The notes below the pieces were generated by a model. The model saw only the letters and a program-made list of their open reading frames with translations, had not been told where the DNA came from and made no database searches. From a virus: a DNA stretch of 32,800 nucleotides. How positions within the stretch are numbered: the stretch's first letter is position 1; each line of letters begins with the position of its first letter. The stretch covers positions 1 through 32,800 of IMG/VR virus record IMGVR_UViG_3300031841_000703. One strand, 5' to 3'. Made by a program: the position numbers and the translations under genes. Below are positions 5,792-29,326 of the stretch, in pieces.

Positions 5792-6069
5792 TGGCAAAAG
5801 ACCCACGCATAAAACGGCTAGGCGTTAAGGGCTACAATAAGCCTAAACGAACACCAAACCACCCTAAAAAATCGCATGTGGTACTAGCTAAAGTAGGGTC
5901 TAAAGTAAAAACTATTAGATTTGGTCAACAGGGCGTTAGAGGTGCTGGCAAAAATCCTAAATCAGCAGCACAAAAAGCCAGAAGAAAATCATTTATGGCG
6001 CGTCATAGAAAAAATATAGCTAAAGGCAAAATGTCAGCAGCATATTGGGCTGCAAGGGTAAAATGGTAA
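5791..6069 (+). CDS. Small basic conserved phage protein (92 aa)
   Basis: A Lys/Arg-rich protein starting MAKDPRIKRLGVKGYNKPKR and ending KGKMSAAYWAARVKW. I recognise this as a conserved small protein of environmental and marine phages, with the recurring features GVKGYNKPKRTPNHPKKSH, TIRFGQQG and FMARHRKNIAKGKMSAAYWA, but its role is not established. It is coupled by TAATG to the tiny basic gene before it. It sits between the major capsid protein and the neck genes, where decoration, cement or DNA-binding proteins are often found. Its high positive charge suggests contact with DNA; that is inference. Confidence 0.75.
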   Translation: MAKDPRIKRLGVKGYNKPKRTPNHPKKSHVVLAKVGSKVKTIRFGQQGVRGAGKNPKSAAQKARRKSFMARHRKNIAKGKMSAAYWAARVKW

Positions 6070-6073
6070 CATT

Positions 6074-6217
6074 ATGGCTAAACTTACAAAGGCACAAAAA
6101 AGACGCGCAAAAGAAATAAGCCGTAGGCGTGGTATAAAGTACCCTAATGCGTGGGCTAATTTAATGGTAGCGCGTGGTAAACGTGTTAGCCGTAAAAGAA
6201 AGGCCAAAAAGAAATGA
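6074..6217 (+). CDS. Small basic protein (47 aa)
   Basis: ATG 6074 begins 4 bases after the previous stop and TGA 6215-6217 overlaps the next ATG. The product starts MAKLTKAQKRRAKEISRRRG and ends in KRKAKKK: 20 of 47 residues are Lys or Arg and only one is acidic. The centre GIKYPNAWANLMVARG is less charged and could be a short ordered helix. The family is unknown to me. Being embedded without gaps in the late operon, and sharing composition with its neighbours, supports it as a real gene. Confidence 0.65.
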   Translation: MAKLTKAQKRRAKEISRRRGIKYPNAWANLMVARGKRVSRKRKAKKK

Positions 6218-6459
6218 ATACAGTTAAAATTAAACACGACACTGGGAAAGATGGTTATGCTATAATTAACGAAGCAGACTATAACCCAAAAATTCACACA
6301 TTATTTGACGCAGAACCGAAAAGGGCAAGAAAAGCTAACGGTCAATTGCAAGCTGATGACCCTTCTACACCAGACGTAAACGAAGCGTGGGAAGGCGGTA
6401 AAGCACCAGCAAAGAAAGCAAAAAAGAAACCAGCGGCAAAGAAAAAGGCGGCTAAGTAA
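6214..6459 (+). CDS. Small protein with H1-like lysine-rich tail (81 aa)
   Basis: The N-terminal part KDGYAIINEADYNPKIHTLF resembles a short conserved module of phage head-region proteins. The C-terminal third is Ala/Lys/Pro-rich (KAPAKKAKKKPAAKKKAAK), much like histone H1-type tails. ATG 6214 overlaps the preceding stop (ATGA), and its own stop TAA 6457-6459 overlaps the next start (TAATG). It is the last of four consecutive small basic genes behind the capsid gene. DNA or capsid-interior binding is inferred from composition only. Confidence 0.7.
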   Translation: MNTVKIKHDTGKDGYAIINEADYNPKIHTLFDAEPKRARKANGQLQADDPSTPDVNEAWEGGKAPAKKAKKKPAAKKKAAK

Positions 6460-6959
6460 TGGCAATTATAACAACGGTTGGAGCGACAACGGCTAATAGC
6501 TACATAACGGTAGCTGAATACGAAACGTTTTGGACAGAGCGTAATGTCACTATATCACATTCTACAGCAGCAAAGGAAAGTGAATTAGTCAAAGCGGCTG
6601 ATTATTTAAATCGCACTTATAACTATATTGGGGAAAGGCAGTATCGTTATCAGGGTATGGAATGGCCCAGATTAACAGGTACAATGTTGGTAAAAGATTG
6701 GCCTATTGATCCCGACACAGTTCCGCAAGACATAAAAGATGCGCAAGCAGAAATGGCGTATCTTATTCATGGCGGTGCTACCCCATTTTCTACCGTTTCA
6801 TACGGAGCAATTAAGCGTACAAAATCCAAGGCTGGGTCAGTAGAAAGTGAAACAGAATATACTAATTACCGTGAAGTGCCAAGGTACGTAGCAATCGAAG
6901 GTTTATTAGCGCCATATACAGAATTTGGTGGCGCACAAATTAAGGTTTTACGTGCATGA
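6459..6959 (+). CDS. Head-tail adaptor (phage 'DnaT-like' connector family)
   Basis: A 166-residue protein. The opening TTANSYITVAEYETFWTER, then AAKESELVKAADYLNRTY, EWPR and the later PQDIKDAQAEMAYL match a widespread phage family often annotated as DnaT-like ssDNA-binding protein. From its position it is the first neck ring under the portal (HK97 gp6 / P22 gp4-like adaptor). The DnaT label probably misleads, since there is no replication context here. It lies between capsid-region genes and further neck genes and overlaps the next gene by ATGA. Confidence 0.75.
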   Translation: MAIITTVGATTANSYITVAEYETFWTERNVTISHSTAAKESELVKAADYLNRTYNYIGERQYRYQGMEWPRLTGTMLVKDWPIDPDTVPQDIKDAQAEMAYLIHGGATPFSTVSYGAIKRTKSKAGSVESETEYTNYREVPRYVAIEGLLAPYTEFGGAQIKVLRA

Positions 6960-7330
6960 CTACTGTAACAGCGATAGCAGATGCAGCTTTTGATGCAGTC
7001 CATGCAGCAATAACTGATGTTATTAAAGATGCTACGCTATCATATGCTACAAATTACGATCATACCTATGACGTGGACGAAGGTAATTATTCACAAGCAA
7101 CAACGTCAATAACGGGTAGAGTTGTATTTGATACAGAAAAGCCAGCAAAAGATATTTTTCCTGATTATGTGCAAGGCACAAAAGAAGAACTAGTATTGCT
7201 GGAAGGTTTTAGCGCAGCCGCAAAAGAAGGTTACACGCTTACAATCGGAAGTGATAATTATGTTGTTAGACGGGCGCAAGCAGTAGCAGGCTCTGTTTCT
7301 TTGGTTTACGCAGTGGTGGCGAAAAAATGA
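6956..7330 (+). CDS. Putative head-closure (stopper) neck protein
   Basis: A 124-residue protein with an N-terminal helix (IADAAFDAVHAAITDVI) followed by mostly beta-type sequence (TTSITGRVVFDT, YTLTIGSDNYVVRRAQ). It is coupled by ATGA on both sides, between the adaptor and the HK97 gp10-like gene. In siphovirus gene order this slot encodes the head-closure or stopper protein that holds packaged DNA and docks the tail. I do not see a diagnostic motif, so the role rests on order and size. Confidence 0.55.
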   Translation: MTTVTAIADAAFDAVHAAITDVIKDATLSYATNYDHTYDVDEGNYSQATTSITGRVVFDTEKPAKDIFPDYVQGTKEELVLLEGFSAAAKEGYTLTIGSDNYVVRRAQAVAGSVSLVYAVVAKK

Positions 7331-7737
7331 CAAACGTACAGAACGCCAAAGATTTTAGCCTAAAGTTAAATAAACAGGTGCTAGATACAAACGAAAAAAT
7401 AGAAGATGCAATACAGGTTATTGCAATGGATAGCTTACGCGGCGTAGTTCAGAAATCACCCGTAGACACTGGACGTTTTCGCGGTAACTGGATAGTTTCA
7501 GTAGATAGCCCAAACTTAACAGAAACGCAGCAAACAGATGTAAATGGTTCAGCAACCATCAATAAAGGCATGGCAGCGATAGAAGCATTTGATATAAATA
7601 ACAGCAGAATTTATATTCAGAATAACTTGCCATACGGCAACCGATTAGAAAACGGGTGGTCAAAGCAAGCGCCTAATGGAATGGTTGCTTTAACGCTTTC
7701 TGAAATGAGCGCAAAATATAGGGAAATTCTTATATGA
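7327..7737 (+). CDS. HK97 gp10-like neck/minor tail component
   Basis: A 136-residue protein. QKSPVDTGRFRGNW (about residues 40-55) followed by IYIQNNLPYGNRLENGWSK is the typical signature of the HK97 gp10-like family, small proteins of the head-tail joint. In the middle lie substitution-tolerant residues (AAIEAFDINNS). It is coupled by ATGA to both neighbours. The order adaptor, closure, gp10-like, terminator, tube matches known siphovirus neck modules, which strengthens the assignment. Confidence 0.8.
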   Translation: MTNVQNAKDFSLKLNKQVLDTNEKIEDAIQVIAMDSLRGVVQKSPVDTGRFRGNWIVSVDSPNLTETQQTDVNGSATINKGMAAIEAFDINNSRIYIQNNLPYGNRLENGWSKQAPNGMVALTLSEMSAKYREILI

Positions 7738-8168
7738 GCTATTCCACAGAACGCAAAGCGATAGAAAAATATTTGCTTAGATACTGGGGAGAACGCACCC
7801 CAATAGGATTTGACGGTCACGAATTTGAACCAACTTCTGAAAGTATACGTCTAACGATACAGAACGGTCAGGCTTTTCAGGGGTCTATTGGCGGCACAAC
7901 AAATAGAATAGACTATACAGGATTAATACAAATACAAATATTTACTGATGGCGGCAAAGGTACAAACGCATGGCGGCAACATGCGGAAGAATTAGATACT
8001 TTGTTCCACGATAAAAGATTAAATGATAAGGGTGCAGTAGCGACAACCGACACATTTATTAGATTTTCACCAGATCAACAGCACCCCTATATATCTGCTG
8101 AAATTTCTGATATACCTTTTCACATAGCAACCTTTAACGCGCCATTTGTGCGTTATGAATATAAATAG
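7734..8168 (+). CDS. Tail terminator protein (DUF4128-like)
   Basis: A 144-residue protein just before the tail tube gene. The start YSTERKAIEKYLLRYWGERTP, then RIDYTGLIQIQIFTDGGKGT, then HAEELDTLFHDKR are typical of the tail-terminator / lambda gpU-like group often called DUF4128. Such proteins form a hexameric ring that ends tail tube polymerisation and joins the tail to the head. A purine-rich ribosome binding site for the next gene (AGGAGG-like, 'taggaggccac') follows the stop. Confidence 0.75.
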   Translation: MSYSTERKAIEKYLLRYWGERTPIGFDGHEFEPTSESIRLTIQNGQAFQGSIGGTTNRIDYTGLIQIQIFTDGGKGTNAWRQHAEELDTLFHDKRLNDKGAVATTDTFIRFSPDQQHPYISAEISDIPFHIATFNAPFVRYEYK

Positions 8169-8179
8169 GAGGCCACAAA

Positions 8180-9127
8180 ATGGTTGGCATTGCATCAAAT
8201 CAGCTTAGATCAGCTTTTGTGGCTGAAACTACAGCAAACACAACACCATCAACACCATCATTTACAAATAGTGATGTACCAATAAACATGACCGCAACAC
8301 CTAACATTATTGAACACCGTTCATTAGCTGGTAAAGGTGAAGCAGTCGAAACGTCTATTGGCGGTATAGATGTATCTGGCACAATGTCAGGTACGCTAGT
8401 GTACGGCGCTTATGACGATATGTTAGAAAGCCTTTTGCAAGGTACATGGGCAACTAATGTGCTAAAAAATGCTAAAACAACGCAAACATTTACTGTAGAA
8501 AACGCAATTGCAGCAGGCGATGGCGGCACAAATACAATGATGCGCTATACAGGTGTAGAAGTTTCTGGCGGTTCAATAACTCTGACTTCTAACGCAGATA
8601 TTACATTTGCATTTGATCTATTAGGTATGGGGTCAGCAGATACGACAACCAGCGCAATTTCTGGCGCTACCTATACGGATCAATCGCAAAGAACACCGTT
8701 ATCTAGTGGTTTAGATGTTGGCACAATCGCAATGGCAGGTTACACGCTAGACGCGTTTGAAAGTGCAACAATTAATTTTACTTACGAAGGTCGTGAAGCG
8801 CAGAATAAATTAGGTTCTGATTATGCTAAAGGCGGTATTACAAAAGGCGCGTTATTAGCAGAAATTACAGCTAGGGTGTATGTCGATAGCAACTTTGCAT
8901 CTATGTACAACGCAGCGCGTGATAATAATCACACCCTTTTTGCTACTACTTTCCCTTTAGGGTCGGTGTCTGGTTCTAAATACACGCTAGTTTTCCCTAA
9001 GTGCAAATTCACAACATCTAATTTAGATTTTACGGGAACAGCAGCAATGCAAGACGTAACAATACGCGCAATGTATGACGAAGCAACTGAAGATGCTTCA
9101 GTTAAACTAACAAGGGCAGTAAGCTAA
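8180..9127 (+). CDS. Major tail tube protein
   Basis: A 315-residue protein with a strong ribosome binding site (AGGAGG, ending 8 bases before ATG). The N-terminus GIASNQLRSAFVAETTANTTP, then IEHRSLAGKGEAVETSIGG and GTLVYGAYDDMLESLLQGTW, match the Phage_TTP_13-type tail tube family of siphoviruses. The protein stacks as hexameric rings to make the tail tube. The Ser/Thr/Gly-rich beta sequence and the end DASVKLTRAVS are normal. The stop overlaps the next small gene (TAATG). It should be the second most abundant structural product. Confidence 0.88.
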   Translation: MVGIASNQLRSAFVAETTANTTPSTPSFTNSDVPINMTATPNIIEHRSLAGKGEAVETSIGGIDVSGTMSGTLVYGAYDDMLESLLQGTWATNVLKNAKTTQTFTVENAIAAGDGGTNTMMRYTGVEVSGGSITLTSNADITFAFDLLGMGSADTTTSAISGATYTDQSQRTPLSSGLDVGTIAMAGYTLDAFESATINFTYEGREAQNKLGSDYAKGGITKGALLAEITARVYVDSNFASMYNAARDNNHTLFATTFPLGSVSGSKYTLVFPKCKFTTSNLDFTGTAAMQDVTIRAMYDEATEDASVKLTRAVS

Positions 9128-9285
9128 TGTTTGTTGTGCAATCTAAATTTTCAGCAGTAGTTGATGATAAAGAAGTTACTTACCGTAAAGGCGATAAAGT
9201 AAACGAAGAAGTAGCTAAAAAACTGGGTTTAGCCGACAAGCCCAATTTAGCTATTAGCGATAAAAGTATACCGACAGAAGAATAA
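9127..9285 (+). CDS. Small hypothetical tail-region protein (52 aa)
   Basis: It starts at ATG 9127, overlapping the tube stop (TAATG), and ends at TAA 9283-9285. The product MFVVQSKFSAVVDDKEVTYR is followed by KGDKVNEEVAKKLGLADKP. It looks like a short beta-hairpin plus helix protein; I do not know its family. Translation coupling to the tube gene suggests high expression. The end of the gene runs into the structured leader of the next gene, and ACCGACA within it (9270-9276) could also pair with TGTCGGT 9313-9319. Confidence 0.65.
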   Translation: MFVVQSKFSAVVDDKEVTYRKGDKVNEEVAKKLGLADKPNLAISDKSIPTEE

Positions 9286-9352
9286 GTGCAGCACTTAGGG
9301 GGGATATTTCTTTGTCGGTAAGTATCCCCCCACTTAACCGACAAAGGAAAAC
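9283..9352 (+). promoter_or_regulatory. Interlocked stems in leader of tail chaperone gene (possible pseudoknot)
   Basis: Stem 1 pairs GGGGGGATA (9298-9306) with TATCCCCCC (9323-9331). Stem 2 pairs CTTTGTCGGT (9310-9319) with ACCGACAAAG (9337-9346). The 5' arm of stem 2 lies in the loop of stem 1 and the 3' arm lies outside it, the topology of an H-type pseudoknot or of two alternative hairpins. Stem 2 can be lengthened by AAG 9320-9322 with CTT 9333-9335. The Shine-Dalgarno AAAGGA (9343-9348) of the gene at 9355 lies partly inside stem 2. A further palindrome, TAAGTGC/GCACTTA, sits at 9283-9297. No T-tract follows, so a simple terminator is unlikely. Confidence 0.6.
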
Positions 9353-9354
9353 CG

Positions 9355-9831
9355 ATGCTTAAATTAACGCAACCAAATATGTCTGATCAAATATTTCGTA
9401 GGGAATTTTCATCAGAACTAGATTTTCTATCAGGCGAAACAACATTTATAGAAATTAAATGTCGTGCTGGTGGATGGTTAAATCACAAATTAATTAAATT
9501 ACGTGATGACATAGAATTAAATAGACAAATACAAACTATGCAAGCAGCAGAGTTTATAAAAGATAGAGAAAAGTTTGCTAGAAAAGCCGCTGAAAATACA
9601 AAAACTATAGGTAAAATGCAATTTGGCGCGTTGTTTGACGCGTGTGTTATTCATTGGAATACTAATATTAAAAATGATGGCAAAAACATGGATTGTGTAA
9701 AAAGCACCTTTATGGCGTTAGCAGATGTTAGGATAGAAGAAATTTCTAATTATTTCGTAGATTTTGCGAAATATGTAGATGATTTAGCAAATTTTATAAC
9801 AGAAGCAGATAAGGAAACGGAAAAAAACTAA
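9355..9831 (+). CDS. Tail assembly chaperone, short form (lambda gpG-like)
   Basis: A 158-residue protein between the tube and tape measure genes, the position of lambda G and equivalents. It is mostly charged and helical (IELNRQIQTMQAAEFIKDR, DREKFARKAAENTK, ending EADKETEKN). These proteins coat the tape measure protein before tube polymerisation and are absent from the finished virion. The ATG at 9355 follows AAAGGAAAACCG. The last sense codons are GAA AAA AAC before TAA, forming the slippery sequence A AAA AAC. Function is assigned from gene order and the frameshift architecture rather than a sequence motif. Confidence 0.8.
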   Translation: MLKLTQPNMSDQIFRREFSSELDFLSGETTFIEIKCRAGGWLNHKLIKLRDDIELNRQIQTMQAAEFIKDREKFARKAAENTKTIGKMQFGALFDACVIHWNTNIKNDGKNMDCVKSTFMALADVRIEEISNYFVDFAKYVDDLANFITEADKETEKN

Positions 9832-10139
9832 TTAGCGCACTTCTTTGGTCATATCAATATTCACCAAAAGATGAACAGTATTTGATTGCAAAGGGTGCGC
9901 TGGACATAACAAAAAAGCCAATACCAAATAATTTAACTGCATGGATAGCGTTTAATTCTTTACGTAATTCAAGACAAATAAGTTTTAACGGAGTTGCGCC
10001 TATACCATTTACAGAAATTATGGCATACTGCAAACACGCTGGTATTGATTGCGAAATTGAAAGGTCAAGATTAGCAAGATTTGTTATGGCATTAGATAAA
10101 GCGGAGCGTGAACAGTGGCACAATCAACACTCAGATTAA
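9355..10139 (+). CDS. Tail assembly chaperone, long -1 frameshift form (gpGT-like)
   Basis: A -1 shift at A AAA AAC (9822-9828) moves ribosomes from the end of the 9355-9831 frame into the frame reading CTA ATT AGC from 9828. That frame is open from 9813 and ends at 10139. The product would be 261 residues: 158 from the short form and 103 new ones (LISALLWSYQYSPKDEQYL to EQWHNQHSD). The downstream frame has no ATG start; its earliest plausible start is a TTG at 9882 without a good ribosome binding site. This matches the lambda G-T arrangement, where the T part binds tail tube protein. The tape measure gene starts inside its 3' end. Confidence 0.8.
9822..9901 (+). promoter_or_regulatory. Programmed -1 frameshift site with downstream stem
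   Basis: The heptamer A AAA AAC at 9822-9828 is in the correct register (codons AAA 9823 and AAC 9826). After a 5-base spacer, AGCGCAC (9834-9840) pairs perfectly with GTGCGCT (9895-9901). Inside this loop TTTGGT (9844-9849) can pair with ACCAAA (9863-9868). A GC-rich stem just after a slippery site in AT-rich sequence is the usual stimulatory layout. Confidence 0.75.
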
Positions 10140-11893
10140 ACATTGACAGCACGGGCGCAAAGCAAGGCGCAGATCAATTTTCTAGTGCAACAGACCAAGT
10201 AAAACAAAAAGCAACGCAGGCAGGCAGTGCTGTAGATAGAATGGGTGGGCGTTTTAGTAAGGTTACTAATATGTCTGCACAGTCAAGGTTTGTGTTTCAA
10301 AACACTGCTAACCAGTTAGGCGATATAGCTGTACAAGCTTCTATGGGTACAAATATATTTCGTGTTTTGGGTATGCAGCTACCGCAATTAGCTGGCGGTT
10401 TTGCTATATTAGGCGGTACAATGGGTGTCGTGCTGCCTATTTTGGGTGTTATTGCTGCTGTTGGTTTTCCACTTATTGCGATGTTTACTAGCATGGGTCA
10501 GAAGGCCAAAAGTGCTGGCGAAATGCTTGACGATTTTAGTGCTGATTTAGGTGACGCAGCAGACCACTTAGAAAAAACATCTATACCACTATCAACTTTA
10601 GATGAAGAATTTGGTATTTTTGCCGCAAGCGTAAAAGAAGCGAGGGAGTCATTACAAGAATTAATACTTGCTGGTTTAGTTAGGGATTTAGACGCTGTTG
10701 GTAACAAATTGTCAGAATTTTCAGGAAATCAGGGTATTTTTGAACGTATAAAGTACGGCTCAGAACGTTTTGGCGCAGCAAACAGAAAATTACAAGCTCA
10801 GTTAGGCGCAACAGAAGAACAGGCAGACGCATTAGTTGAAGCTTTTGCAGCACTGGAAGGCGCATTTGAACCAGAAGATCAAATAATTGCTTATCAAAAT
10901 TTACGCGAAGCTTTATTAAACTTAAATCCTGTAACAGACGAACAAAAAGATAAACAGCTAGAACTTGCACGGGCAGCTTTGCAGGGTCAAGAAGATGGTT
11001 CAAAGCTTGTTCAAATGTATAATGATTTAAAGGAAAGTATTGATAAAGTTAATAATACACCTTTAAAAATAGAAATTCCTACAGGTTTCCTTAGAGGTGG
11101 AAGGGGTAGCGTATTACCTTCCGCATCAGATTTACTAATGATGCGTATGGGCGGTGAAATCACAGACAAAGATGGAAAACCTGACCCAACAGCAGACGCA
11201 GCACGTAAAAAAGAACAAACAGAACTTGTTAGTTTTGCTAAGAAATTTAAGCCAGTCATTGATGCCACAAAAGAATACAATGACAACATGGAAAAATTAA
11301 ACCGTGCTAGAGAAATTGGCGCAATTACTGAAGCACAACACGCACAAGCTACATCAGTAGCCACCCAACAGTACCAAATAGCAACAGGTGAACTAATTGA
11401 CTATACAAGAGTAGCTAACACGTTTGCACAATCATTAGAAGATAGCATGATGGCGTTAGCAGATGGTACAATGTCTGTTAAAGATGCGTTTAGAAATATG
11501 GCTTCTATGGTTATTAAAGAACTGTATAGGGTTTTAGTCGTACAGCGTTTAGTCAACGCAGCAATGGGCATTTTTGGTTTCACGCCTTCTATTGGGGGTG
11601 GTTATGTACCTATAGGTGGCGCTGGCGCGTATGGTGGCCCTGTAGAGGCTGGTAAAGGCATTGTTGTGGGTGAACGTGGGCCAGAAGTATTTTACCCACC
11701 TACAAGCGGAAATCTAGAGCCTACGGGTGGTGGCGATATTGTGGTAAATCAAACAATAAACGTTAGTACAGGGGTGCAGCAGACAGTAAGAACAGAAATT
11801 AGGTCGTTAATGCCAGAAATAGCGCAAAGTGCAAAAGCTGCTGTTGCAGACGCTAAAAGGCGTGGCGGTAGTTATGGAAGGAATTTTGCATAA
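10115..11893 (+). CDS. Tail tape measure protein
   Basis: A 592-residue protein with a GTG start at 10115, preceded by GCGGAGC (GGAG 9 bases upstream) and overlapping the end of the frameshift frame. The N-terminus is Ser/Gln/Lys-rich and helical. A long hydrophobic stretch at about 91-127 (LAGGFAILGGTMGVVLPILG then VIAAVGFPLIAMF) is the membrane-type segment typical of tape measures. The C-terminus has GGPVEAGKGIVVGERGPEVF followed by YPPTSGN, a motif common at the end of tape measure proteins. It sets tail length and helps DNA cross the host envelope. By the usual 0.15 nm per residue, a tail near 90 nm would be expected (inference). Confidence 0.88.
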   Translation: MAQSTLRLNIDSTGAKQGADQFSSATDQVKQKATQAGSAVDRMGGRFSKVTNMSAQSRFVFQNTANQLGDIAVQASMGTNIFRVLGMQLPQLAGGFAILGGTMGVVLPILGVIAAVGFPLIAMFTSMGQKAKSAGEMLDDFSADLGDAADHLEKTSIPLSTLDEEFGIFAASVKEARESLQELILAGLVRDLDAVGNKLSEFSGNQGIFERIKYGSERFGAANRKLQAQLGATEEQADALVEAFAALEGAFEPEDQIIAYQNLREALLNLNPVTDEQKDKQLELARAALQGQEDGSKLVQMYNDLKESIDKVNNTPLKIEIPTGFLRGGRGSVLPSASDLLMMRMGGEITDKDGKPDPTADAARKKEQTELVSFAKKFKPVIDATKEYNDNMEKLNRAREIGAITEAQHAQATSVATQQYQIATGELIDYTRVANTFAQSLEDSMMALADGTMSVKDAFRNMASMVIKELYRVLVVQRLVNAAMGIFGFTPSIGGGYVPIGGAGAYGGPVEAGKGIVVGERGPEVFYPPTSGNLEPTGGGDIVVNQTINVSTGVQQTVRTEIRSLMPEIAQSAKAAVADAKRRGGSYGRNFA

Positions 11894-12484
11894 ATGGCTA
11901 TTACTTACCCACTAGCATTGCCCACAAATATAGGTATAGGATCAATACAGCTAAGAGCGACAAACGCAGTTGCTTATTCACGAAGCCCGTTTACTTTTGC
12001 TGGTCAAGCCCACGCATACAGTGGCGAAATATGGGAAGCTGACGTAACTCTACCACCATTAAATAAAACAGATGCGGAAGCATGGATAGCCTTTCTTATG
12101 AGTTTACGCGGTCAGCATGGCACATTTTATTTAAATGACCCTAGCGGAACTAGTCTAAGCAGTGGTTCAGCGCCTAGTTCTTTAGCAATAACAGGTTCTG
12201 CTGGCGCTAGAAGCGTAACAGCAACCATGACGGGTACACTGTTAGCTGGTGATTATTTTTCTTTGGGTACAGGTGCTGATATGAGATTATACAAAGTATT
12301 AGCAGACAAAACAAATAGCGGAACACTGGAAATATGGCCTGCTTTACGCGCTACGGCTTCTAGTGCAACAGCAGATATTACAAGCGCATCTGGCGTTTTT
12401 AGGCTATCTGCAAATCAACAGGCGTGGACTATAAACAATGCTAATATTTTTGGCATTACATTTGGAGCGATGGAAGTTGTATGA
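11894..12484 (+). CDS. Putative distal tail protein
   Basis: A 196-residue protein starting directly after the tape measure stop (TAA ATG). The pattern YSGEIWEADVTLPPLNKTDA, then AWIAFLMSLRGQHGTFYLND, is typical of a minor tail protein family at this position in many siphoviruses, with a beta-rich domain followed by a Ser/Gly-rich domain (residues about 90-160). It probably forms the ring joining the tube to the tip. The stop overlaps the next gene by ATGA. The name distal tail protein is from order; I see no catalytic residues. Confidence 0.65.
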   Translation: MAITYPLALPTNIGIGSIQLRATNAVAYSRSPFTFAGQAHAYSGEIWEADVTLPPLNKTDAEAWIAFLMSLRGQHGTFYLNDPSGTSLSSGSAPSSLAITGSAGARSVTATMTGTLLAGDYFSLGTGADMRLYKVLADKTNSGTLEIWPALRATASSATADITSASGVFRLSANQQAWTINNANIFGITFGAMEVV

Positions 12485-19449: not shown

Positions 19450-20205
19450 ATGGGTCAAAACTATGGTGTGAGTGTACCCAAAGATGATTTAAAGTTTTAC
19501 TTTGATATCAATAATCCCAAATGTGTAGATGCTAGTGCAGCTATTACATCTTCTACGACACTTACAAATTTAGTCGATAGTAGTTATACTTTTGCGCCTT
19601 ACGACACTTCGTCTACTGGTTTAAGTGCCATGTCTTTTGCACAAGATAACGGTAATTATGTATATGCACAAAATGCTAAAGTAGGTGGCGAACCGTGTTG
19701 GGTTGGATCAAATATACCAAGAGTTAATGAGTTTACTTTTATTTGTTGGTATAAACTTGCATATGGAACAGCTACTCAAAGGGCAGAAAACATTTATGGC
19801 GGTGGCTTTTCGGGCAGAACATCTTTTTATTTAGTACCTAGTGGCACAAGTACTTATAATGGTGTTTTAAGATATTCTGATGCAGGTAGTACAAATTATT
19901 ATTCAGCAGGTGCAAGTTACGGTGCAACAGATAATAATTGGCATTGTTGGGCAGCGGTAGATTATGGCCCTGATTATTACCATAAAACAGATTTTTATAT
20001 TGATGGTGTGTTTAAAGTAACAGGAACAAGCAATACGTCTTTCGATACACCTGATGGTGACGGTACGCCTACATGGGGATCATGGTCTTTAACTTATGGA
20101 AACTTTGGTGGCAGCACTAATTTATTTATGTACTATGAAAAAGCACTTACTGCTGCTGAGATATATAAAATTTACCAAAGCACTAGAACAAGGTTTGGTG
20201 TGTAA
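19450..20205 (+). CDS. LamG/concanavalin-like adhesin 1
   Basis: A 251-residue protein. The N-terminal part VPKDDLKFYFDINNPKCVD, then EFTFICWYKLAY, NNWHCWAAVDYG, KTDFYIDGVFKVTGT, and the end YYEKALTAAEIYKIYQSTRT plus RFGV follow the laminin-G-like (concanavalin-type) beta-sandwich pattern common in phage adhesins. Such domains usually bind sugars. It is the first of three neighbouring proteins of this design. The stop overlaps the next start (TAATG) within a 19-base sequence that recurs at the next junction. Sugar binding is family knowledge; the target is unknown. Confidence 0.75.
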   Translation: MGQNYGVSVPKDDLKFYFDINNPKCVDASAAITSSTTLTNLVDSSYTFAPYDTSSTGLSAMSFAQDNGNYVYAQNAKVGGEPCWVGSNIPRVNEFTFICWYKLAYGTATQRAENIYGGGFSGRTSFYLVPSGTSTYNGVLRYSDAGSTNYYSAGASYGATDNNWHCWAAVDYGPDYYHKTDFYIDGVFKVTGTSNTSFDTPDGDGTPTWGSWSLTYGNFGGSTNLFMYYEKALTAAEIYKIYQSTRTRFGV

Positions 20206-21410
20206 TGGCACTAGCACATGGATCAGGCATAACTACAGATGGGCTTGTGTTAGCTTATGACAATGGCAGTAGTCAGTCATGGAAGGGCGCACCCACTACC
20301 AATCTAATTGATTCGTGGAATCCAGAAACACCTGCGTCAACGATGTATTGGTGGTACAGTTCTGGTAATCAATATTTTACTAAATCTAATGTTCTTGAAG
20401 ATGAAGTAAACGGTTATTACTACGCCGATGTGTATATTACTACATCTTCACAAAGTGGTTATTATAACGGACAGTTGTACACTGGCAATGTCACTCTTAA
20501 CTCAGGATCATACTATAGCATTTCTGCTTGGGTTTGGACAGATAGAGCCTTTCAGTTAAGGCTTGGCATGATCAAGAATGGTTCGCCTTACAGTACATAT
20601 ATAACAATGCAAGCACATCAATTATCAGTTGGTTGGAATTATGTAGTCACAAGTACATCTTCTGCAATGAGTGCAACATATACAGATGCACGTTTTGAAA
20701 TGGCTTTTGGTTACGCACCTGCTGGCACACACTTAAAAATATACAAGCCACAAGTAGAGGCATTATCTTTTGCTACACCATTTACACCTACAAGTAGATC
20801 AACAACACAAGCATTAACTGATTGGGTAGGTGGGCAGACGATTACAATGCTGTCTTTGAATGATTACAACAGTACGGAAAAGTTTTCTTTTGATGGTACA
20901 AACAACACAGATAGAGGAATAAGTATACCTAGTCAAAATTTAAACAACAGCTATTCTGTAGAAGCGTGGTTTAAATTTGATACAGGTGGTCTATTACAAG
21001 GTATTATAGGCGATTATCAATATGGTTGGTATAGATTTGTTTTAAGTACAAATAACCAAATCTACGCAGGCCACATAAATAATGCTAGTGGGTACAGCTA
21101 TAATTTTATTACAGCACCTACCCAATTATCTACAGGTACATATCACCATGCTGTACACGTTTTCGATGAAAACGCAGGTCAAAGAATTTATATTAATGGG
21201 TCTTTAGATGCTTCTAATACAAATTCCCTAAACTTTTTATTAAGCAGTAGAGGCCCACAGTACATAGGACAAGATAGAAATTCTGCACCCTCAACAAGAA
21301 ATAACTTAGATGGTACAATTCCAATATTACGAATATACAAAAACAAAGCACTAAGTGCATCAGAAGTGGCAAAAAACTATAATGCGTTACGTGGAAGGTT
21401 TGGTGTGTAA
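20205..21410 (+). CDS. LamG/concanavalin-like adhesin 2 with extra N-terminal carbohydrate-binding-like domain
   Basis: A 401-residue protein. It starts with DGLVLAYDNGSSQSW, then APTTNLI and a beta-sandwich of about 170 residues (GYYYADVYITTSS, YSISAWVWTDRAFQLR, TDARFEMAFGYAPAGTHLKI) resembling CBM-type domains. The second half is a LamG-type domain: YSVEAWFKFDTGG, HAVHVFDENAGQRIYINGSL, QYIGQDRNS and LRIYKNKALSASEVAKNYNA followed by LRGRFGV. The two-domain build is seen in other phage fibre proteins. It is coupled by TAATG to both neighbours. Binding to host polysaccharide is inferred. Confidence 0.78.
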   Translation: MALAHGSGITTDGLVLAYDNGSSQSWKGAPTTNLIDSWNPETPASTMYWWYSSGNQYFTKSNVLEDEVNGYYYADVYITTSSQSGYYNGQLYTGNVTLNSGSYYSISAWVWTDRAFQLRLGMIKNGSPYSTYITMQAHQLSVGWNYVVTSTSSAMSATYTDARFEMAFGYAPAGTHLKIYKPQVEALSFATPFTPTSRSTTQALTDWVGGQTITMLSLNDYNSTEKFSFDGTNNTDRGISIPSQNLNNSYSVEAWFKFDTGGLLQGIIGDYQYGWYRFVLSTNNQIYAGHINNASGYSYNFITAPTQLSTGTYHHAVHVFDENAGQRIYINGSLDASNTNSLNFLLSSRGPQYIGQDRNSAPSTRNNLDGTIPILRIYKNKALSASEVAKNYNALRGRFGV

Positions 21411-22054
21411 TGGGTTGTGCAGCAGGGGCAAACGTAGTTACAGACAATTTAAATTACTATGTAGATGCCAAAAACACAAAATCTTACAGCGGATCAAGTG
21501 GTTATGGTGGCACGAATTGGGTAGATTTAACAGGCAATAATGATGTGTCATTATCTGGTGTTTTTTACAGTACAGATGGCTATTTTGTTTTAGATGGCAC
21601 TAACGATTTAATCAGCCAAGTAGTTACCGTAGGCACAGCGAAAACAGTCAGCATTTGGGTGCGGCAATCTACAGGTACTACTTTAGGTTTACTGCATAGA
21701 AGTGATTGGCGTGAGCGTGTTTTTCAGGGCAGTATTGTTTTAATAGCAAGTAATGGCACGTATTTAACATTAGATTATACCGATTTAGTTGGCGATACAG
21801 ACTATAATATTTGTTATACAATAGATGGCACAGCGGCAAAAGCTTATGTAAATGGCGATTTGGCAGTAACAGGTACGCTTGCGTCGAACATGAATACAGG
21901 AAGCTATACGTACTATCACGGTTATCAGTGTTCTGGAAGTAGCTGCTACTATATTAACGGGCGTGTTTATGCTATTAGTTATTATGATACTGCTTTAACT
22001 GCTGATCAGATAAAAGCAAACTTTATAGCATTACGCGGTAGAATTGGGATTTAG
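21410..22054 (+). CDS. LamG/concanavalin-like adhesin 3
   Basis: A 214-residue protein. VVTDNLNYYVDAKNTKSYSG, WVDLTGNNDVSLSG, YFVLDGTNDLIS, TVSIWVRQSTG-like strands, then AKAYVNGDLAVTGTL and the end YDTALTADQIKANFIALRGR follow the same LamG-type pattern as the two preceding proteins, but without the extra N-terminal domain. The ending (RIGI) parallels RFGV in its neighbours. A cysteine-rich turn YQCSGSSCYYINGR replaces the segment in the others. Probably a third member of the same adhesin set; whether all three are on the virion cannot be told. Confidence 0.75.
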   Translation: MGCAAGANVVTDNLNYYVDAKNTKSYSGSSGYGGTNWVDLTGNNDVSLSGVFYSTDGYFVLDGTNDLISQVVTVGTAKTVSIWVRQSTGTTLGLLHRSDWRERVFQGSIVLIASNGTYLTLDYTDLVGDTDYNICYTIDGTAAKAYVNGDLAVTGTLASNMNTGSYTYYHGYQCSGSSCYYINGRVYAISYYDTALTADQIKANFIALRGRIGI

Positions 22055-22057
22055 CAC

Positions 22058-24124
22058 ATGGCAAATACAGACAAAGATATTTTAATAACGCCTAACGATG
22101 GGTCAAGCACTGATGACCCTAAAATAGAGTTTAAAGGTGCAGATGCTAGCACTACGGCGCAGACAATAACCGCAACTGTTTACCCTACAAATTCAGGCAC
22201 ATTATCTTTTGATGGTTCAGCAGGCCAGTTATTTTCTATTACTAACGATATGTCAGGCACTATTTTCAGTGTTAACGATGTGTCAGGCATACCCAGTATC
22301 GAAGTAGATGACGATGGCACAATACGTTTAGCTGAATATTCTGGTAATATTCTTGTTGGTACAGCTACAGATGACGGTTCTAGTAAACTACAAGTAAACG
22401 GTACAACTTCTATTGATGGCGTTTTAAAATTAGAAACAACCTCAGATCAAGCCTTCGAAATGCGTCAACTGTCTACAAAGGCTAATGATTGGAATTATAT
22501 AAGTTTTTTCGGCAGAGATGGCACAAGAGATGCTTATGTAGGCACTGATGCCGATGGCGATTTAATGTTATATTCTGATAAAAATAGCAGTTATATAGAA
22601 ATGGCTGCTAGTCCTAATATTAATGGTAATGTAATAGTTCATGCTGGCAATGTCAGCAGTTATGTTGGTGGCCCTACTCTTACGGCAACGGCTTCTGGCG
22701 CGATTTCAAACGGTGATACTTGCTGTGTAAACACTGATGGCACTGTAAGCGCAATAGCTTCTTCTGCTGTATCGCAAGGCGCGACAACGCCAGCAACAAC
22801 AGGCGGTGGTGTAACCTATTATAGTCATATGGCAATAAACAGTGCTGGTACTATTTTGGCAGTGTTTGCAGATAGTAACTACTATTTAAGCGCACAAGTA
22901 GGCACAGATAACAACGATGGTACTGTTACATGGGGAACTAAAGCAACTTTACTAAGCAACAATATACAAAATTGTAGGGTTGCTTATATACCAAGTTTAG
23001 ACAGATTTCTTGTTGTCTATCATAACAATTCGCTTTCTAGCAGAACGTATGCAGGCGTAATTACAATTTCTGGTACTACACCTTCTTTTACAGCAGGTGG
23101 TTATGCAACAAATGTTTGCTTTGATATTGACGTTGCAACAAATACAGACACAAATAATGTGTTTGGTGTTTGCAAATCAAACAATCAACCACGTTGCTTT
23201 ATGGCAAGAATTGACCCTGACAACACAACCACAGCACAAATTACTAGCGCAGATACAATTAATTATACTGGGTCAGGAACTTTTAATGATGAAGGGGTTA
23301 CCTATGACAGTAGTGTGCAAAGGGCAGTGGTAACTTGGCAAAATAGTTCTAGAATTTATGCTGAAACAATAGAAAATGACACTTCTTCTAATTGGTATGG
23401 CAGAAATTATACTAGTCAGGTTCTTATAAACGGCTCTTATTTAGGTTCTTTTGATACTTCTAATTCGATAGGTATTAATCTAGCAATTGCAAGCAATGGC
23501 GCTGGCAAAGCTTGTGTCATTTACGATACAACAAGCGGCACACAAACACGTATATCACAATTAAGCGTAACCGCTTCAGGCGTTTCTTTAGATGGTGTTG
23601 TTACCTTAGATAGTGACGAAAGTTACGAAGCTGTAATTTGCTATGACAGTAATACAGACACCTTTCTTTGTGTTTACGAAACGCAAGATGGCAACACGCA
23701 AGGCAAGGTTGCTACTATTGGGGGCAGTGGTGTGACTTTAAGTTCTCAAACTACAATAGAAACATCAGCAAATAATCCTGTAAATATGTCGGCTATTTTT
23801 TCGACGGTTTCTAATCGTGGTTTATTTTTGTATTACGACAATAATGCATCAAACGTAGGTACGTATAATTTTTTCAATAATGCGTACACCAGTACAAACC
23901 TAACGACAGAAAATTATATAGGTATTGCAGATGCTGCCTATTCTAACGGCGCAACGGCAACAATACAAATTGTAGGGTCTGTCGATGACGCACAATCAAG
24001 CCTAACAGCAGGGCAACAGTATTACGTTCAATTAGATGGGTCATTAGGTTTAGCGCCTGCAACTGGTAAATCTGTTTTTGCTGGCACAGCGGTTAGTGCA
24101 ACAAAAATTATAGTGAAAGGTTAA
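22058..24124 (+). CDS. Large fibre/spike protein with propeller-like middle region
   Basis: A 688-residue protein. Residues about 1-230 form a fibre-like N-terminal region (ITPNDGSSTDDPKIEFKG, GTIRLAEYSGNILVG, NGNVIVHAGNVSSYVGG). Residues about 245-610 show recurring units of the form strand-turn-strand (RVAYIPSLDRFLVVYHNN, GVTYDSSVQRAVVTWQNS, VICYDSNTDTFLCVYETQ, SAIFSTVSNRGLFLYYDN), about four to six times, suggesting a beta-propeller like sialidase or Kelch folds. The C-terminus (NYIGIADAAYSNG to KSVFAGTAVSATKIIVKG) is a module seen in marine phage fibres. No catalytic residues are recognised. It is likely a receptor-binding or glycan-interacting protein. Confidence 0.7.
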   Translation: MANTDKDILITPNDGSSTDDPKIEFKGADASTTAQTITATVYPTNSGTLSFDGSAGQLFSITNDMSGTIFSVNDVSGIPSIEVDDDGTIRLAEYSGNILVGTATDDGSSKLQVNGTTSIDGVLKLETTSDQAFEMRQLSTKANDWNYISFFGRDGTRDAYVGTDADGDLMLYSDKNSSYIEMAASPNINGNVIVHAGNVSSYVGGPTLTATASGAISNGDTCCVNTDGTVSAIASSAVSQGATTPATTGGGVTYYSHMAINSAGTILAVFADSNYYLSAQVGTDNNDGTVTWGTKATLLSNNIQNCRVAYIPSLDRFLVVYHNNSLSSRTYAGVITISGTTPSFTAGGYATNVCFDIDVATNTDTNNVFGVCKSNNQPRCFMARIDPDNTTTAQITSADTINYTGSGTFNDEGVTYDSSVQRAVVTWQNSSRIYAETIENDTSSNWYGRNYTSQVLINGSYLGSFDTSNSIGINLAIASNGAGKACVIYDTTSGTQTRISQLSVTASGVSLDGVVTLDSDESYEAVICYDSNTDTFLCVYETQDGNTQGKVATIGGSGVTLSSQTTIETSANNPVNMSAIFSTVSNRGLFLYYDNNASNVGTYNFFNNAYTSTNLTTENYIGIADAAYSNGATATIQIVGSVDDAQSSLTAGQQYYVQLDGSLGLAPATGKSVFAGTAVSATKIIVKG

Positions 24125-24398: not shown

Positions 24399-26075
24399 AT
24401 GTTAGGTTTTGTTGCACTTGCAAAAATTACACTTGCTGATGATGCGGCAGAACAAAATTACGTTTTCGAGGCTGGAACGGGAACATTTACAGTTACTGGT
24501 CAAACAGTAAATCTTAACAACCAGCCGATTATAACAGCAGAAACTGGTTCTTTTGCACTTACAGGCCAAGAAAATCAGTTTCTATTAAATAACGTCAATG
24601 GTTTCGGCTCTTACGCATTAACTGGGCAAGATGCGCAGTTTAAGTTTAGCATGGTTGCTGAACGTGGTATTTTTGCGCTTAGTGGTTTTCCACACGTTAA
24701 AAACATTACAATGGACGGTAGGCATGTCGTTCATTCATTTACAGGGCAAGATAGCGTATTTTCTATTAATTACCCTGTTGATAACGGTTCGTTTGCATTA
24801 TCAGTATTTGACGCTGAGTTATTACGAAGCGTATTAGCGGAAACAGGCACTTTTACGTTAACTGGGCAAGACGCTATTTTACAGGGTGTTTTGTCGTTTG
24901 TTGCAGATGCAGGTACATTTACTGCAACAGGCCAAGATGCTAGTTTCACTGTAACGCGCAAAGCTGATGCAGGTTCTTTTGCGGCAACAGAACAAGATGC
25001 AAGTTTTGCTATTAATTTTCCTGTTAATGTTACTAGCAACCCATCTGGAGCAACGACAGTACAATATGATGTAAGCGTAGCCAGTGGTACGAATGAATAC
25101 GGTTCAGGTAATAAGTATTATATAGACGGGCTGGTGGGTGCTAGTCCTACGCTACAGCTTATGGCAGGTGTTACCTATAGATTTAGTCAAGCAGACGGTA
25201 GCAACGGAGGCCACCCGTTACGGTTTTCAACAACCCCAAATGGAACGCATGGTGGCGGCACAGAATACACTACAGGGGTCACAGTTAACGGTGTAGCTGG
25301 TTCTAGTGGTTCATATACCGAAATAACCCCTACGGCTACTACACCGCGTTTATTTTACTATTGTACCGTACATGCTGGCATGGGTGGGCAGGCAAGTGCA
25401 AATGGTGGTGTACACACGCTAACAGGGCAAGATGCTACCCTTATAAAAGATTTAAAACTAGCAGCAGATAAGGCAGATTTTGTACTAACGGGTCAAACAT
25501 CTGTATTTAATGTAAAAATAAGTGCAGCACATGGTTCGTTTATTCTAACGGGTCAAGACATTGCTCTTAATAAAGCAGTTAATATTAATGCAGAAGTTGG
25601 TAATTTTGTTCTTACTGGGCAAGATGCGCTTAAAGGTATTAGCGAAATTGCAGCAGCCGCATCTTATGCGTTAACTGGGCAAGATGTTTCGTTTAATGTA
25701 ACTCTTAATGCAGAAACGGGTAGCTTTACCTTAACAGGGCAAGATGCCCTAAAAGACATTATCGAAATAATACCTTCAGCGTCTTTTGTTTTAACAGGGC
25801 AAGACGTTACCTTTAGAGTAAACATTTCTTTAATAGCTGAACACGCTATATTTACCCTTACTGGGCAAGATGCAGAACCTAAATTTGTGCTAATACGCAC
25901 TGAATTTGATGGTTATGAACAGCAGTCAGAATTTATAAAAGCAAGCACAGTAGAATTGACTACGGGCAAGCCAAACATAGTTGAAATAGAAGCCGTAGAC
26001 GAAAATGATTTACAGCTATTTGAACAGACGCAAAATAGTGTTACAATAGAACCAACATTTAACAGGGCAGCATAA
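24399..26075 (+). CDS. TGQD-repeat tail protein with a cupredoxin-like insertion
   Basis: A 558-residue protein. The unit G-S-F-x-L-T-G-Q-D-A recurs about 17 times at spacings of about 20-24 residues (for example FTLTGQDAI, FTATGQDAS, FVLTGQDALK, YALTGQDVS), with two degenerate copies (FALSGF, FALSVF). Between repeats 9 and 10 (residues about 208-335) lies a domain with GGHPLRFS (H272) and YYCTVHAGMGG (C322, H325, M328), the His...Cys-x2-His-x2-Met set of a type 1 copper site as in plastocyanin-like cupredoxins. The C-terminus returns to acidic sequence (EIEAVDENDLQLFEQ). Likely an elongated adhesin or tail-side fibre; copper binding is a prediction. Confidence 0.7.
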   Translation: MLGFVALAKITLADDAAEQNYVFEAGTGTFTVTGQTVNLNNQPIITAETGSFALTGQENQFLLNNVNGFGSYALTGQDAQFKFSMVAERGIFALSGFPHVKNITMDGRHVVHSFTGQDSVFSINYPVDNGSFALSVFDAELLRSVLAETGTFTLTGQDAILQGVLSFVADAGTFTATGQDASFTVTRKADAGSFAATEQDASFAINFPVNVTSNPSGATTVQYDVSVASGTNEYGSGNKYYIDGLVGASPTLQLMAGVTYRFSQADGSNGGHPLRFSTTPNGTHGGGTEYTTGVTVNGVAGSSGSYTEITPTATTPRLFYYCTVHAGMGGQASANGGVHTLTGQDATLIKDLKLAADKADFVLTGQTSVFNVKISAAHGSFILTGQDIALNKAVNINAEVGNFVLTGQDALKGISEIAAAASYALTGQDVSFNVTLNAETGSFTLTGQDALKDIIEIIPSASFVLTGQDVTFRVNISLIAEHAIFTLTGQDAEPKFVLIRTEFDGYEQQSEFIKASTVELTTGKPNIVEIEAVDENDLQLFEQTQNSVTIEPTFNRAA

Positions 26076-26401
26076 TGAGTTTTTACATTAAACAAAACGA
26101 TACAGCACCTTCTTTAAAGGCAACACTAAAAGACGGTGACGGTAATGTGATTAATTTAACGGATGCTAGTGTACGCTTTCACATGCGTACTGTCGGCGGC
26201 GCAAGCAGCGTAGTAGACGCAGCAGCTACAGTAAATAGCCCTGCAACTGCTGGTGTTGTGCAATACGATTGGGTTGCAACAGACACTGTTACTACGGGAG
26301 CATATCAAGCAGAATTTGAAGTAACCTATGGCAATAGTAAGATTGAGAGTTTCCCAAATAACGGGTATATACGGGTGCAAATCGTTGATGACATTACCTA
26401 G
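26075..26401 (+). CDS. BppU N-terminal-like baseplate/fibre attachment protein
   Basis: A 108-residue protein. YIKQNDTAPSLKATLKDGDG (about 4-23), VRFHMRTVGG, VQYDWVATDTVTTGAYQAEF and FPNNGYIRVQIVDD match the N-terminal domain of baseplate upper protein BppU (PF10651-like), a small beta domain often found alone in phages. In lactococcal phages BppU anchors receptor-binding proteins. Here it probably provides an attachment for a nearby adhesin. The start overlaps the stop of the repeat protein (TAATG). Confidence 0.7.
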   Translation: MSFYIKQNDTAPSLKATLKDGDGNVINLTDASVRFHMRTVGGASSVVDAAATVNSPATAGVVQYDWVATDTVTTGAYQAEFEVTYGNSKIESFPNNGYIRVQIVDDIT

Positions 26402-28211: not shown

Positions 28212-28829
28212 ATGGCTAAAGGTGACGCGCTAAAATATCTGCAAAAGCAATGCAATGTAATGGCTGATGCTAAGTTTGGTATCAATACGGCTAGAGCAAT
28301 AGCAAAAAAATACAAATGGTCACAATTACGGGCAGCACACATTTTAGGTCAATGCGCCCATGAAAGCGGAAACTTTATTAGAACAGAAGAAAGCACGTAT
28401 TATAGTACAGCCAAACGAATTAGAAAAACTTGGCCTACACGATTTAAAACCGATGCTGACGCTGAACCTTACGTAAAGAACCCAAAGGCTTTAGCTGACA
28501 AGGTTTACGGTGGTCGTATGCAAAACCAAGGCAGGGGTTATTTTTGGCGTGGTCGGGGTTTTATACAATTAACGGGCGCTATGAATTATAAATCTTTTGC
28601 TGAAGATACAAAGCTTTATGAAGTGTTAAAAAATCCCGATTTAGTTGCAACAGAATACGCAATGCAAAGTGCTATTTGGTTTTTTGACGTAAACGATCTT
28701 TGGGATGATTGTGACAATGGTTTAGACGTTGAAAACATAAAGTTCATTACCAAACGAATTAACAACGGTTACAAAGGTTTAAAAGACCGCATAGAAAAAA
28801 CTAATAAGATTTATAACTGGCTTAGTTAA
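28212..28829 (+). CDS. Endolysin, GH19 (chitinase-like) lysozyme
   Basis: A 205-residue protein with ribosome binding site GGAG. HILGQCAHESGNF carries Glu51, the general acid of GH19 lysozymes, and E60 in RTEESTYYS is the likely second catalytic Glu, nine residues on as in phage GH19 endolysins. YGGRMQNQGRGYFWRGRGFIQLTG (two pieces, about 97-121) with the GRGxxQLTG motif and then NYKSFAE is diagnostic of the family. It cleaves peptidoglycan glycan strands. There is no signal peptide, so it needs a holin. Its TAA stop overlaps the stop of the opposing gene. Confidence 0.9.
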   Translation: MAKGDALKYLQKQCNVMADAKFGINTARAIAKKYKWSQLRAAHILGQCAHESGNFIRTEESTYYSTAKRIRKTWPTRFKTDADAEPYVKNPKALADKVYGGRMQNQGRGYFWRGRGFIQLTGAMNYKSFAEDTKLYEVLKNPDLVATEYAMQSAIWFFDVNDLWDDCDNGLDVENIKFITKRINNGYKGLKDRIEKTNKIYNWLS

Positions 28830-29326
28830 CTAAAAAATAAACTGTTTTTTTGGAAATGATATACGTTAACTTTTCTTTTTGACGTTTCAATCCAAGTGTT
28901 TTTATGCGAAATACCTTTTCTATCGCCTAGTCGTTTCCAGCCAACGCCTTTCCAAAATTCATTGCTAGGTAAATCATCAGCGCAACCACAAGCAAAATCG
29001 TGTATGCCTCTGCTTTGACCGTGTTTCATTCCAGCGTCTAACAATGCTTTACCTCTTTCAATTCTTCTTGCATCCTCTTGAATAGCAATTTGATTTACTT
29101 TTGACCATTTGCCAAAAGACATTAAAAGAAAACCAACTTTATCACCATTTTCTTCACATATCCATAGTTTGTCATTACAAGTATTAGACCACCTTTTACC
29201 AGTTTTTTCACCAGTGATTGCTGCTTGATATGCAGTATTGGGTATAAACCCTAAAGCATTGCTTTCTATTTTTGATAAAGAATGAATATATTTTAAATCA
29301 TTCAAGTTTGCTAATCTTACTTTCAT
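28826..29326 (-). CDS. GNAT-like acetyltransferase
   Basis: A 166-residue protein on the minus strand. The start MKVRLANLNDLKYIHSLSK is a typical GNAT beginning, followed by KLWICEENGDKVGFLLMSF (strands 2-4), VNQIAIQEDARRIERGKALL in the acetyl-CoA binding region, and ASxx/EFWKGVGWKRLG near the end, as in other GNAT proteins. The RxxGxG/A loop is degenerate (RRIERGKA). The ATG is preceded by AAGGA 8 bases upstream and by a good promoter. It faces the lysis genes and its stop codon overlaps that of the endolysin (TTAA). It may modify a host or phage molecule; the substrate is unknown. Confidence 0.75.
   Translation of the reverse strand: MKVRLANLNDLKYIHSLSKIESNALGFIPNTAYQAAITGEKTGKRWSNTCNDKLWICEENGDKVGFLLMSFGKWSKVNQIAIQEDARRIERGKALLDAGMKHGQSRGIHDFACGCADDLPSNEFWKGVGWKRLGDRKGISHKNTWIETSKRKVNVYHFQKNSLFFS

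Follow-up and report, generated by a model that had tools for sequence, protein, structure and literature searches.

A mobile cupredoxin-fold module with a predicted type 1 copper site in tail proteins of marine phages

A domain embedded in a repeat-built phage protein carries the complete ligand set of a type 1 copper site. The reading that we favour, on a balance tipped only modestly in its direction, is that the domain is genuinely of cupredoxin fold and contains a type 1 copper site of the amicyanin kind, in a mobile extracellular module put to adhesive or structural use in the tail. The present analysis establishes the conservation of the ligands, the predicted fold, homology, mobility of the domain, and its occurrence in annotated tail and virion proteins. 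That the domain binds copper is an inference made without binding data, and one in which we place considerable confidence. The DNA analysed, hereafter the window, is a stretch of 32,800 nucleotides from IMG/VR virus record IMGVR_UViG_3300031841_000703. A previous sequence-only reading proposed that the domain is cupredoxin-like, and this identity is now backed by the predicted fold, by the pairing of ligands in profile-profile comparison, and by their near-invariance among homologues.

Results

Domain and predicted ligands

The motifs GGHPLRFS (H272) and YYCTVHAGMGG (C322, H325, M328) lie exactly at the residue positions previously given for them, and together meet the definition of a type 1 copper ligand set, namely two His, a Cys and an axial Met or Gln (Table 1). 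C322 is the only Cys in the entire 558-aa protein. The Cys-x2-His-x2-Met loop had been thought shorter than usual; it is not abnormally short, because amicyanin has the same spacing, with ligands at Cys92, His95 and Met98 (PMC12723479; PDB 1aac). On reading the sequence, repeat units of approximately 20-22 residues with the pattern ..F.LTGQDA.. occur nine times before the domain (approximately residues 25-205) and seven to eight times after it (approximately residues 339-500), which agrees with its earlier placement between repeats 9 and 10.

Table 1. Coordinates in the window of the repeat protein, its repeats, and the predicted cupredoxin domain and ligands.
Feature	Position	Strand	Basis
558-aa repeat-built protein, putative virion/tail surface protein	24399..26075	+	open ORF
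Repeats 1-9 (..GxFxLTGQDA.., each 20-22 aa), N-terminal of cupredoxin domain	24471..25013	+	
Predicted cupredoxin-fold domain, approximately residues 219-335	25053..25403	+	AlphaFold2, structural matches, profile match
His272, predicted first ligand of type 1 copper site, immediately ahead of beta strand	25212..25214	+	aligns with amicyanin His53
Cys322, predicted thiolate ligand, last residue of strand	25362..25364	+	aligns with amicyanin Cys92
His325, predicted second His ligand, in loop	25371..25373	+	aligns with amicyanin His95
Met328, predicted axial ligand	25380..25382	+	amicyanin Met98 spacing
Repeats 10 onward (7-8 copies), C-terminal of cupredoxin domain	25413..25898	+	

Conservation of the ligands

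Across a non-redundant set of 52 homologues (<70% identical), which share 23-66% identity with the window domain, H272 is kept in 52/52, and C322 and H325 each in 51/52, while the position of M328 is occupied by Met in 48 of 51, by Gln in two and by Tyr in one. When all columns of these 52 homologues are ranked by conservation, H272, C322, H325 and M328 come first, second, third and seventh; the check on Cys, His and Met that the sequence-only reading had proposed thus finds them conserved. Because it is near-invariant in 52 homologues less than 70% identical, the four-residue motif cannot be put down to chance. All four ligands are present in every copy of the first homologue set (143/143), and in 187/198 copies when a distant subfamily is included. 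The complete exceptions among these 198 are Met to Gln (2), HSDM (2) and HNNY (1), and the remaining non-HCHM copies are partial matches. In complete copies of this set the Cys-His-Met spacing is always 3,3, the His-Cys spacing ranges from 41 to 64, and codons at the His and Cys ligand sites vary synonymously.

Two loci (L146, L147) hold cupredoxin copies with C-x2-H-x2-Q, in which the Gln is a putative axial ligand and the motif suggests stellacyanin-like sites. Gln for Met is a natural axial substitution in stellacyanins.

As some of the homologue search patterns contained the motif, the conservation test was repeated without motif-based selection, using 24 GenBank phage loci picked by whole-domain tblastn. 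In this repeat, 23 matched rows were HCHM, including the window itself and a sister locus from IMG/VR (L157). The domain is split by insertions in S-BM3 and Sf-CH11, with all four ligands present, and the P-HM1 copy reads C-x2-H-x3-M. The second copy in P-HM2 is degenerate (His to Lys, Cys to Asp), as is the second copy in S-CAM22, where the His is lost and the C-x2-H-x2-M motif is absent; degenerate copies elsewhere have lost Cys and His (L070/L126), or Cys, His and Met (L147). Several ligands disappear together in such copies, and this near all-or-none retention is the pattern that a metal site predicts.

Sequence relationship to known cupredoxins

The window domain reached no Pfam or NCBIfam model. 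The gathering cut-off of PF00127 Copper-bind was not met, with the window domain unmatched and three of 25 members matching at a best E of 0.021, and a bacterial homologue (L115) scored 20.4 bits against a cut-off of 21.2. Apart from these sub-threshold Copper-bind matches, none of the Pfam, PHROG or NCBIfam entries that were matched names the domain as a copper domain. A Pfam CBM_4_9 identity was set aside, as the match was weak (6/25 members, best E 0.001) and points to another beta sandwich family. Searches of the PDB with the single domain sequence, or with a 25-sequence profile, returned nothing significant, and the top of the sequence search listed antibodies and ribosomal L31 alongside a pseudoazurin (E 0.2-0.9). 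Since this search was indecisive, fold and profile-profile comparison were needed to place the domain. Comparison by hhalign of a diverse domain profile with amicyanin (1aac), plastocyanin (1plc) and three marine pseudoazurins gave a probability of 90.7 and a score of 38.05, against a maximum of 18.1 in 100 column shuffles and 15.0 for the reversed control, and paired H272, C322 and H325 with H53, C92 and H95 of amicyanin.

Predicted fold

An AlphaFold2 model of the window domain, computed from an alignment of 25 sequences (the window domain and 24 homologues), has a pLDDT of 88.8 and a pTM of 0.83. DSSP assigns strands to model residues 112-116 and 124-129, with C116, H119 and M122 (C322, H325 and M328 of the protein), and H66 (H272) falls just ahead of a strand at 68-71. 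The model therefore meets the type 1 topology, in which Cys, His and Met occupy the loop joining the last two strands and the first His lies upstream. Structure prediction had been suggested as a check on whether the fold could bring the four residues together; the answer is favourable by topology and profile mapping only, as ligand distances are unmeasured, and closure of the four ligands around one metal should be read as a proposition that topology and profile alignment alone support.

When the window model was compared with the PDB by Foldseek, the top rows were rusticyanin and multicopper oxidases, with E of 2e-3 and up. VIA gave a Z of 9.4 (rmsd 2.4, 101 aligned) to domain 1 of CuNiR (6tfo), and of 8.3 to rusticyanin. 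The former is only moderately above the level that the tool calls common, whereas the distant sister subfamily (30% identical), which was modelled separately (pLDDT 84.7), is clearly above it, with Z of 12.4 to CuNiR domain 1 (HdNIR, 2dv6) and 11.7 to rusticyanin; auracyanin and azurins follow at about 10. Among the matches of this second model are azurins whose loops were engineered to CTPHPFM (an entry titled Cu(II)azurin) or to CAAHAAM, which indicates that a Cys-x2-His-x2-Met loop is compatible with a copper site in a cupredoxin fold. With an all-beta model and whole-domain cupredoxin matches, membership of the cupredoxin fold (a Greek-key beta sandwich of approximately eight strands) is met in prediction. 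BFVD includes the same protein as A0A516MLJ1 (558 aa; 98% identity across the domain), together with numerous marine phage proteins that share the domain's fold.

Distribution and mobility

What had appeared to be an oddity of one phage is a widespread marine module. Searches by tblastn against GenBank phages found 53 records, mostly cyanophages, but also pelagiphages, Methylophilales phages and uncultured marine viruses, and the homologues are annotated as tail fiber, virion structural protein or gp7 baseplate wedge. IMG/VR contains at least 571 coding stretches with the domain, of which the sequences of the best 80 were retained. Contigs of bacterial and archaeal genomes contributed 41 loci, nearly all labelled as marine taxa (one is Epulopiscium); some are clearly phage, and others encode bacterial secreted proteins, as in OM182 and K189A bacteria (L093 and L098), where the domain accompanies a lipobox and a cadherin domain. 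Further examples of the latter are a giant adhesin-like protein of SAR86 (L100) and a DUF4214 protein (L120). PHROG families among domain-bearing proteins comprise tail fiber, baseplate wedge and connector, and one protein (L116) has a Phage_T7_tail N-terminus, as in T7-type tail fibres, followed by the cupredoxin domain. Architectures fall into 78 bins of length and position, with up to four copies per ORF.

The cupredoxin domain is a mobile module that has moved between repeat positions. At both ends, the sister protein L157 corresponds to the window protein, but it carries the domain between repeats 4 and 5, and the position occupied in the window protein (repeats 9/10) is empty; a further repeat protein (L158) is without the domain, and L002 has it at the same position as the window protein.

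Four marine contigs (L093, L095, L096, L098) encode lipobox lipoproteins in which a cadherin-like segment is followed by the cupredoxin domain. Two of these, L095 and L096, are near-identical yet binned as Acidimicrobiaceae and Gammaproteobacteria.

Gene neighbourhood

Genes in the window are ordered terminase, portal, head, tape measure, lambda-J-like tail fibre and LamG-like genes, then the repeat-protein ORF, a BppU_N-like gene and endolysin, such that the tail tip J and LamG-like genes precede the gene for the repeat protein, and the endolysin gene lies downstream of it. The domain region of the repeat protein matches the PHROG tail fiber families phrog_30742 (E 7e-21) and phrog_693 (E 4e-12). 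By these matches and the tail gene order the protein qualifies as a phage tail/virion protein, a placement that remains putative, being drawn from homology, annotation and gene order without virion proteomics. The best relatives of the J protein are in Roseobacter phages (37-43% identity), from which a Roseobacter-type host may be inferred as likely. No close DNA relatives of the window phage were found in GenBank.

Two adjoining LamG/ConA-like lectin genes at 20205-22054 (Pfam Laminin_G_3, E 1e-22 and 1e-6), the first of which also has a weak CBM_4_9 match, are part of a multi-gene adhesin cluster. Immediately preceding the repeat protein in gene order is a 688-aa protein (22058-24124), which resembles, by eye, repeated segments fused to the cupredoxin domain in a single polypeptide (5905-12288) of the contig L102, which binning assigns to Euryarchaeota. 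The repeat-protein gene is followed at once by a small gene (26075-26401) for a BppU_N-type baseplate domain (Pfam E 7e-7), and a GNAT acetyltransferase gene on the opposite strand (28826-29326, -) adjoins the endolysin gene.

Discussion

The domain resembles amicyanin, plastocyanin and pseudoazurin (PF00127) in having a His followed by Cys-x2-His-x2-Met at amicyanin spacing, a Cys that ends the penultimate strand, and ligands that align in profile comparison. Proteins of PF00127 are, however, diffusible electron carriers, whereas the phage domain is embedded in virion proteins and, in the window, lies below Pfam detection; further, its His-Cys segment is longer (50 residues, versus 39 in amicyanin), and its first His is followed by Pro (HP) where PF00127 proteins have HN. 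For both models the closest folds are those of rusticyanin and of the cupredoxin domain at the N-terminus of Hyphomicrobium CuNiR, but identity is below 30% and these proteins serve an enzyme or respiratory function. Ig-like and LamG-like virion decorations are likewise mobile beta-sandwich modules found across tail and head surface proteins, but lack a type 1 metal ligand set. Tail fibres also hold metal at the HxH iron sites known from T4 gp37 and from marine phages (PMC11705849), although fold, metal and ligands all differ, and an iron-type site was rejected here as there is no HxH within the 558 aa.

We propose that the domain belongs to a mobile family of extracellular modules, present in marine tailed phages as insertions in tail fibres, in the baseplate and in further surface proteins, and in some marine bacteria within secreted adhesin-like proteins; in the window phage, the module sits inside a repeat protein of the adhesion gene cluster. 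As the most likely mechanism, the protein would fold in the host cytoplasm, copper-free or zinc-bound, and would then take up a copper ion after lysis. Metal might in turn lock the exposed ligand loop into a rigid face, which could help the tail to hold or recognise a component of the host surface. Occupancy by copper, exposure at the surface, uptake of the metal after lysis and the role, whether adhesive or structural, are each inferred, and no evidence shows that the domain contacts the host.

The bacterial cytoplasm holds almost no free copper, and a zinc-bound or empty site in the virion is therefore possible. If the four residues bind cytoplasmic zinc, or another metal, then the site may merely stabilise the fold; virion assembly takes place in the cytoplasm, and a cupredoxin-like Bacillus protein and an azurin, both among the structure matches, were solved with zinc (4hcg, 1xb8). 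Secreted bacterial homologues, however, have an identical ligand set. Moreover, Met as fourth ligand, and the exchange of Met for Gln, are typical of type 1 copper and not of structural zinc. We consider this alternative unlikely, while regarding it as the most serious of those weighed here.

More doubtful is the proposition, drawn by analogy and untested, that a type 1 copper module spreads horizontally among tail fibres, picks up copper within the host or in seawater, and is read by copper-uptake receptors of the host. The copper-loaded domain would then be a receptor-binding head that docks on an outer-membrane copper-uptake receptor of the host, as a copper Trojan horse. Iron in tail fibres has been proposed to engage siderophore receptors (PMC11705849), secreted azurin is reported to bind the copper receptor OprC (PMC6907878), and pyocins are reported to enter via a copper-regulated TonB transporter (PMC10422930); the domain, too, is present in tail fibres of many phages. 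Nevertheless, contact between OprC and azurin was not reproduced with native OprC (PMC8610252), and the domain also occurs in gp7 proteins of the baseplate and in proteins that bacteria secrete, neither of which needs a phage receptor. Were it true, the module would be the copper counterpart of the proposed iron Trojan horse.

Electron transfer is the known use of the type 1 site in small cupredoxins. As the ligand set is complete, the site might conceivably cycle between Cu(I) and Cu(II), trading electrons with periplasmic or surface redox proteins of the host, or scavenging oxidants. We give this very little credence, given that no redox partner gene was found nearby within the window, that the domain is embedded in fibres, at up to four copies within one protein, unlike diffusible carriers, and that the same domain occurs in phages of very different hosts. 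We hold out equally little hope for a metal-free, Ig-like adhesive sandwich that retains His, Cys and Met for the sake of packing or covalent linkage. Phage tails frequently bear Ig-like decorations, and loss of the metal is known for some relatives of cupredoxins, but the ligands are the most conserved columns here and are lost jointly in degenerate copies (P-HM2, S-CAM22, L070/L126, L147).

Cupredoxins have long been known; the variation here lies in their deployment as a mobile module in phage virions. Respiration, photosynthesis and denitrification are the known settings of type 1 copper sites; virus particles, to our knowledge, are not among them. Among open-licence papers, where absence is not proof, we found none linking cupredoxins with phage tail fibres or phage virions, and none matching the motif strings of the domain; the one paper that brings cupredoxin and cyanophages together deals with Borgs. 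If the preferred reading, a cupredoxin-fold module with a type 1 copper site, is right, then the influence of trace metals on contact between phage and host becomes a question of copper as well as of iron, and a domain undetected by standard libraries gets a name. More broadly, a module whose copper ligands are near-invariant, and which recurs in tail proteins of cyanophages and pelagiphages as well as of hundreds of uncultured marine phages, leads to the prediction that many virions in the sea are copper proteins. Measuring the metals in isolates, for example S-TIM5, Mosig, Baldr or HTVC028P, is a direct way to examine it.

The idea that virions make up a relevant share of seawater copper ligands was rejected. 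Taking generally known seawater concentrations of virions and dissolved copper, 1e10 virions per litre, 10% of them carrying about 18 sites, would amount to approximately 3e-14 M sites, against approximately 1e-9 M dissolved copper.

The fold may extend to giant viruses, a suggestion that rests on fold matches alone, without ligand data: in BFVD, beta-sandwich proteins of Marseillevirus LCMAC201 (A0A481YVH3) and Pithovirus LCPAC302 (A0A481Z6J5) match it with E of about 1e-5.
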